Positions 41,848-42,106 of a stretch of DNA of 64,000 bases are shown here, in pieces. A program made the translations under genes and the position numbers. Origin of the DNA: Aestuariirhabdus litorea (GTDB lineage: Bacteria; Pseudomonadota; Gammaproteobacteria; Pseudomonadales; Aestuariirhabdaceae); assembly GCF_003864255.1 (NCBI RefSeq), contig NZ_QWEZ01000001.1, positions 620,001 through 684,000 on the forward strand. The letters are read 5' to 3'. The notes below the pieces were generated by a model. That model was not told the DNA's origin, did no database searches, and saw nothing but the letters and a program-made list of their open reading frames with translations. Every line of letters begins with the position of its first letter. Within the stretch, counting starts at the first letter, position 1.

Positions 41848-42106
41848 TATGAGTTGGTTTGTGCTGATATCGACGGCGACCGTGGTGCTGGCCATTGCCT
41901 TTGGCATCGTGGGACCGGCAATCGCCATGGGGCGCGCGATTTCAAGTGCGATGGATGCCATGGCACGGCAACCTGAAGCGGAAAAATCGATTATGCGCAC
42001 GCTCTTTATCGGCCTGGCGATGATCGAGTCGCTGGCGATCTACGTGCTGGTGATCGGCTTGATTGTACTGTTCAGGAATCCGCTGATTGAGTTTTTGCTG
42101 GGGTGA
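41840..42106 (+). CDS. atpE: N-type ATPase, rotor-ring c subunit
   Basis: An 88-residue two-helix proteolipid. Helix 1 has [17 protein letters not shown], the loop is ARQPEA and helix 2 has [13 protein letters not shown]. The ion-carrying Glu63 and Ser64 are kept. By alignment to the sodium-binding c subunit of Ilyobacter, Met30 replaces the helix-1 Gln and Leu65 replaces the Thr, so the sodium site is incomplete and proton coupling is possible. ATG 41840 follows AGGAG; GTG 41837 is the alternative. Confidence 0.95.

Follow-up and report, generated by a model that had tools for sequence, protein, structure and literature searches.

An N-type ATPase operon without AtpR

The window analysed here, a stretch of 64,000 nucleotides of the Aestuariirhabdus litorea genome (contig NZ_QWEZ01000001.1, positions 620,001 to 684,000), carries a rotary ATPase operon on the forward strand at 39087-45165. 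Its eight structural genes, every one an open frame, encode beta, epsilon, AtpQ, a, c, b, alpha and gamma. From its sequence, we assign the operon to the accessory N-type rotary ATPases, as a variant that lacks AtpR. The rotor c subunit has lost two side chains of the Na+ site, and the enzyme is probably coupled to H+ rather than Na+.

The catalytic beta subunit (atpD, 39087-40478) matched Pfam PF00006 and the NCBIfam models atpD (566 bits) and alt_F1F0_F1_bet (559 bits), and its P-loop GGAGVGKT is intact. It is followed by the epsilon subunit (atpC, 40475-40876; PF02823, with a weak match to alt_F1F0_F1_eps) and by AtpQ, an ATPase_gene1/AtpI-like membrane protein (40873-41154; PF09527, E-value 1.2e-8) that scored 38.1 bits against TIGR02230, below the cut-off of 46.7. 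The stator a subunit (atpB, 41155-41847; NF009954, 362 bits) and the rotor c subunit (atpE, 41840-42106; NF009998, 107.1, below the cut-off of 116) precede a b subunit of 251 amino acids (atpF, 42119-42874), which matched TIGR03321 (alt_F1F0_F0_B, 114 bits) and has the long C-terminal part of the N-type. The operon ends with a non-catalytic alpha subunit (atpA, 42864-44351; NF009884, 680 bits) and a divergent gamma subunit (atpG, 44329-45165; PF00231, E-value 3.8e-21). NF009954, NF009998 and NF009884 were the top-scoring curated models for the window a, c and alpha proteins; they are titled only as F0F1 ATP synthase subunit A, C and alpha, with no mention of N-type, ion or AtpR.

Papers citing Dibrova et al. 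2010 characterize N-ATPases by the gene order D-C-Q-R-B-E-F-A-G with atpR and without atpH, a long b subunit, alpha and beta subunits that form a clade apart from the F-type, and an accessory role beside an F- or A-type ATPase. The window order, D-C-Q-B-E-F-A-G, matches this apart from the absent AtpR, and no separate delta (atpH) gene was found among the operon genes. In a phylogenetic tree of beta subunits, the window fell on the N side of the branch between N- and F-type with a support of 100, and alpha grouped likewise; the F-type rows in these trees came from six operons, all gammaproteobacterial. The N side held window-type, Na-type and Burkholderia-like subclades, and the window-type clade had a support of 100. 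A second c subunit and an F-type operon lie on another contig of the same genome (C2:466000-480000), and the N-ATPase is thus accessory. Since only AtpR is missing from an otherwise expected order, we file the operon as an AtpR-less variant inside the N clade and not as a typical N-ATPase.

Conventional N-ATPase operons carry atpR between atpQ and atpB (PMC4154653). In the list of open reading frames, the stop of the window AtpQ at 41154 abuts the start of the a subunit at 41155, which leaves no room for an AtpR gene. AtpR (Pfam PF12966) had no match at an E-value of 0.001 or below anywhere in the host genome, which rules out that the gene has moved elsewhere.

The rotor ion site and its conservation

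The window c subunit matched the Ilyobacter ring (1yce/2wgm; phmmer E-value 2.8e-13). Aligned through the ARQPEA loop, Met30 (codon 41927-41929) stands at the place of Ilyobacter Gln32, Glu63-Ser64-Leu65 (codons 42026-42034) at that of Glu65-Ser66-Thr67, and Tyr68 at that of Tyr70. The original prediction concerned the interval 41927-42034, which spans exactly Met30 through Leu65; its reading that Met30 and Leu65 replace Gln32 and Thr67 while Glu63 and Ser64 remain was confirmed by the alignment and codon positions. The Na+ site of c rings consists of Gln or Glu at 32, Glu65, Ser or Thr at 66, Tyr70, the backbone of Val63 and a polar residue (Thr, Ser, Gln or Arg) at 67 (PMC2359735), and in the F. 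nucleatum crystal Thr67 holds a water at this site (PMC3692424). Of these residues, the window keeps the glutamate, the serine and the tyrosine and has lost the ligand at 32 and the polar residue at 67. The host's own F-type c subunit has Val at the Met30 position.

The comparison drew on 151 distinct loci of N-type a subunits. In 369 gammaproteobacterial genomes searched with NF009954, N-type a subunits fell into two clearly separate score ranges, with 13 window-type loci at 323-363 bits and 11 conventional loci at 201-225 bits; a score of at least 320 bits set the Met30/Leu65 clade apart. Scanning the collection by sequence patterns gave 80 named window-type loci, whose hosts include Microbulbifer, Methylobacter, Marinobacter, Vibrio nereis, Acidithiobacillus, Nitrosomonas, Accumulibacter, Desulfuromusa and one Nitrospira metagenome-assembled genome (MAG); added searches covered the phyla of the window and of the Desulfuromusa genome. 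The 89 distinct relatives with a readable c subunit formed a single well-supported N-ATPase clade (support 99, in a tree with the tested sites masked), mainly of Gamma- and Betaproteobacteria but with several phyla represented. Met30, Glu63, Ser64, Leu65 and Tyr68 were identical in all 89, as was a whole stretch of 11 c-subunit residues. The residues agreed in the 14 relatives that were found by subunit-a profiles and not by any sequence pattern. One window-type operon (L064) lies on a contig titled as a Chloroflexi MAG, where mis-binning is possible.

AtpR is likewise absent throughout the clade. A profile built in this analysis found it beside none of the 89 window-type operons, 84 of which had a detectable AtpQ. 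When 22 genomes carrying a window-type operon were searched in full with the Pfam AtpR model, 19 gave no match over the cut-off. The other three, G323 (L214, L215), Marinobacterium lutimaris (L061/L114) and Marinobacter santoriniensis (L082/L122), carry both kinds of N-ATPase, and each has one AtpR, beside the second, Na+-motif enzyme. All ten genomes with the conventional type only had an AtpR candidate in place, nine of them over the cut-off and one (G354) at 22 bits. The AtpR-less Met30/Leu65 state is therefore fixed throughout a widespread subfamily and not peculiar to one genome. In Nitrosococcus halophilus, also a gammaproteobacterium, atpR is missing from the N-ATPases too, which was read as possible degeneration (PMC4154653); for the window operon, the absence is a trait fixed across a large clade.

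A strict tie of AtpR loss to Met30 was ruled out, as L201 combines Met30 with AtpR and L186 combines Gln with no AtpR. In L186 (Gln-ESL), as in the window clade, the loss accompanies a broken Na+ motif, and L191 is also without AtpR. Because L201 keeps AtpR with Met30, the link between AtpR loss and a broken Na+ motif is not strict. At the expected AtpQ-AtpR place, L191 (809-1466) holds a tandem pair of AtpQ-like genes, with no AtpR match. AtpR has been suggested as a c-ring assembly factor (PMC4154653). If it aids ring assembly in the conventional N-type, it may have become dispensable in the Met30/Leu65 lineage, although the reason for its loss is much less certain than H+ coupling.

The window c subunit also contains a packing-like motif, G25xA27xA29xG31, with many clade members having Leu at position 25. 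The Burkholderia packing motif AxGxAxAxG is credited with a large c17 ring (PMC5376962), so the likeness may point, if weakly, to a large ring here too.

Stator residues and the transported ion

A modelled proton path in E. coli runs through Glu219, Asp119, His245, Asn214 and Gln252 to Asp61 of c (PMC10532555). Aligned with the host's own F-type a subunit, the window a subunit has R160, N164, E169, H191 and Q198 at the E. coli positions Arg210, Asn214, Glu219, His245 and Gln252, and thus all five of these proton-type residues. An AlphaFold model (mean predicted local distance difference test score, pLDDT, 80; predicted template modelling score, pTM, 0.69) matched F-type a chains, which confirms the fold only. 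Among the 89 clade loci, H191, H119 and E194 were present in every one, and position 169 was Glu in 82, Asp in 3 and Gln in 4. Conversely, all 41 loci with the c Na+ motif E-EST-Y had Gly at position 191, and none had an acid at 169. Among the scored loci, a broken c motif was accompanied by an acid at 169 or by Asp, Glu or His at 191 in 104/104, and an intact motif by neither trait in 41/43. In the phylum of the Desulfuromusa genome, eight loci (L187, L190, L192, L196-L198, L200 and L201) had Ile at the Thr67 place, His-Asp/Glu at a168-169 and Glu at a134, by sequence a different titratable stator set.

A rotor without the full set of Na+ ligands and a stator with half-channel residues both indicate, at the level of sequence, H+ coupling, to which we give a probability of nearly nine in ten. 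This supports the original prediction of possible proton pumping or changed selectivity, and the a-subunit residues E169 and H191, absent from Na+-motif N-ATPases, strengthen the proton option. The c-ring site keeps the carboxylate of Glu63 with Ser64 and Tyr68, while two side chains of the Na+ site have given way to the fixed, hydrophobic Met30 and Leu65. Protons would reach Glu63 through the E169/H191 half-channel, and the carboxylate would be neutralized by H+ alone when facing the lipid. As has been suggested for Burkholderia (PMC5376962), the enzyme may then mostly pump protons at the expense of ATP, alongside a housekeeping ATP synthase of the F-type. Whether it runs toward pumping or ATP synthesis is much less certain than its probable coupling to H+.

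Several observations weigh against H+ coupling or soften the evidence for it. The residue aligned with what we take to be Asp119 in E. coli numbering is Gly92 in the window; with no Asp119 counterpart, the proton relay cannot be identical to that of E. coli, though the clade-specific H119 and E194 might substitute. The count of 89/89 for His191 is partly ascertained, since this residue is part of one pattern used to find the 80 named loci; the 14 loci found by profiles have it too. L143 and L146, in the Burkholderia-like group, have E191 together with an intact E/ETT motif, which makes a191 an imperfect marker. A paired test of motif against stator on the tree found three well-supported pairs and was not significant; random pairings averaged 1.0 pair in the expected direction, 0.0 in the opposite direction and 2.0 without difference. 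With so few independent shifts, the agreement of stator residues with the rotor motif should be read as an association in sequences and not as proof. Thr67 has also been argued to be unnecessary for Na+ (PMC10532065), in which case the replacement of Gln32 by Met30 would be the main defect of the Na+ site.

The likeliest alternative to H+ coupling is continued transport of Na+, alone or together with H+, by a smaller set of ligands: Glu63, the Ser64 hydroxyl, the backbone carbonyl of Met61 and water, with an extra water or the Met30 thioether at the Gln32 place. The Glu, Ser and Tyr kept in all 89 relatives would fit this, as would the argued dispensability of Thr67. The host also has a strong NqrB match (596 bits, G000:C1:1319848-1321029), which suggests that a respiratory Na+ pump is present and that a Na+ cycle therefore probably exists. 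However, methionine is a poor Na+ ligand, and the stator carries H+ half-channel residues that are missing from Na+-motif N-ATPases. Gln or Glu at position 32 is also a conserved ligand in Na+ c subunits (PMC2359735). We therefore consider Na+ transport improbable. Less probable still, and very much so, is that the operon is a degenerate, drifting and non-functional N-ATPase that lost AtpR, considering that none of its eight structural genes is interrupted, the beta P-loop is preserved, AtpQ persists in most relatives and the site residues are invariant across several phyla. A functionally meaningless private substitution or assembly error of one genome is refuted by this conservation in named isolates and MAGs, including the profile-found relatives, which excludes chance or error as the source of the observation.

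Beyond H+ coupling itself, we tentatively consider a wider scheme, which we regard as possible but rather doubtful. The Met30/Leu65, AtpR-less enzymes would be a third N-ATPase lineage that became a committed proton machine through matching rotor and stator changes. The rotor ion site and stator positions 219/245 would switch together across N-ATPases, so that the stator predicts the ion independently of c, and AtpR would be an assembly factor tied to polar, Na+-type rings.

Known relatives and implications

The original prediction took N-ATPases as a class to be sodium pumps, a view since superseded. The c17 ring of the Burkholderia pseudomallei N-type enzyme is H+-selective in an NCD-4 assay (PMC5376962), and 893 of the 1807 N-ATPases in ProAD are predicted to use H+ (PMC11738941). 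ProAD classes a site as H+ when any Na+ residue is missing (PMC11738941), a rule by which the window enzyme would be classed as H+. H+-type N-ATPases are thus already established, which makes the window case less exceptional than first implied.

The B. pseudomallei enzyme resembles that of the window in its N-type operon, its accessory position beside an F-type ATPase, a c subunit without the full Na+ motif and similar Gly/Ala packing. Its c subunit differs in having Glu30/Glu61/Thr62/Met63, with two carboxylates, and an atpR gene accompanies it, whereas the window has Met30/Glu63/Ser64/Leu65 and no AtpR; Burkholderia-like ETM/ETT loci formed a separate N lineage in our trees. The Na+-type N-ATPases, as described in papers citing Dibrova et al. 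2010 and including the Na+-coupled enzyme of Aphanothece halophytica, share the D-C-Q-(R)-B-E-F-A-G order, likewise have a long b subunit but no separate delta gene, and lie with the window on the branch apart from the F-type in the alpha and beta trees. Unlike the window, they have AtpR, a c subunit with Q/E32-E-S-T-Y, Gly at the His245 place and no acid at the Glu219 place of a. The H+ F-type synthases, among them those of E. coli, the chloroplast and the host itself, share the a-subunit fold with the window enzyme. Those of E. coli and the host also have the equivalents of Glu219 and His245, and the host's F-type c likewise has a hydrophobic residue at the Gln32 place, with Asp as its carboxylate. 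F-type synthases differ in a gene order that includes delta, and their alpha and beta subunits lie on the other side of the tree.

In the window, the P-loop of the non-catalytic alpha subunit reads GDEGLGRSS in place of GDRQTGKT. This change of Lys to Arg was seen in 52 of 72 window-type rows, and the 20 rows scored as Lys include about five truncated loci in which beta was picked by mistake. Lys is kept in the deeper clade members L084, L088, L091, L100, L101, L105 and L112, and in all F-type, Na+-type and Burkholderia-like alpha rows compared. The substitution may alter nucleotide binding at the non-catalytic sites.

H+-type N-ATPases as such are already known. In the literature searched, which did not cover the founding 2010 paper, neither the AtpR-less clade with Met30/Leu65 nor the agreement of its c motif with a-subunit residues was mentioned, and both are apparently undescribed. 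Annotations frequently describe N-ATPases as sodium pumps, and the role of the operon in its host depends on the ion. A large proteobacterial group can be recognized by Met30/Leu65 in c, Glu169/His191 in a and the lack of AtpR, and its members should not be labelled as Na+ enzymes. Marinobacterium lutimaris, Marinobacter santoriniensis and G323, which each carry the two N-ATPase types, offer a setting within one organism for both the predicted ion and the function of AtpR.
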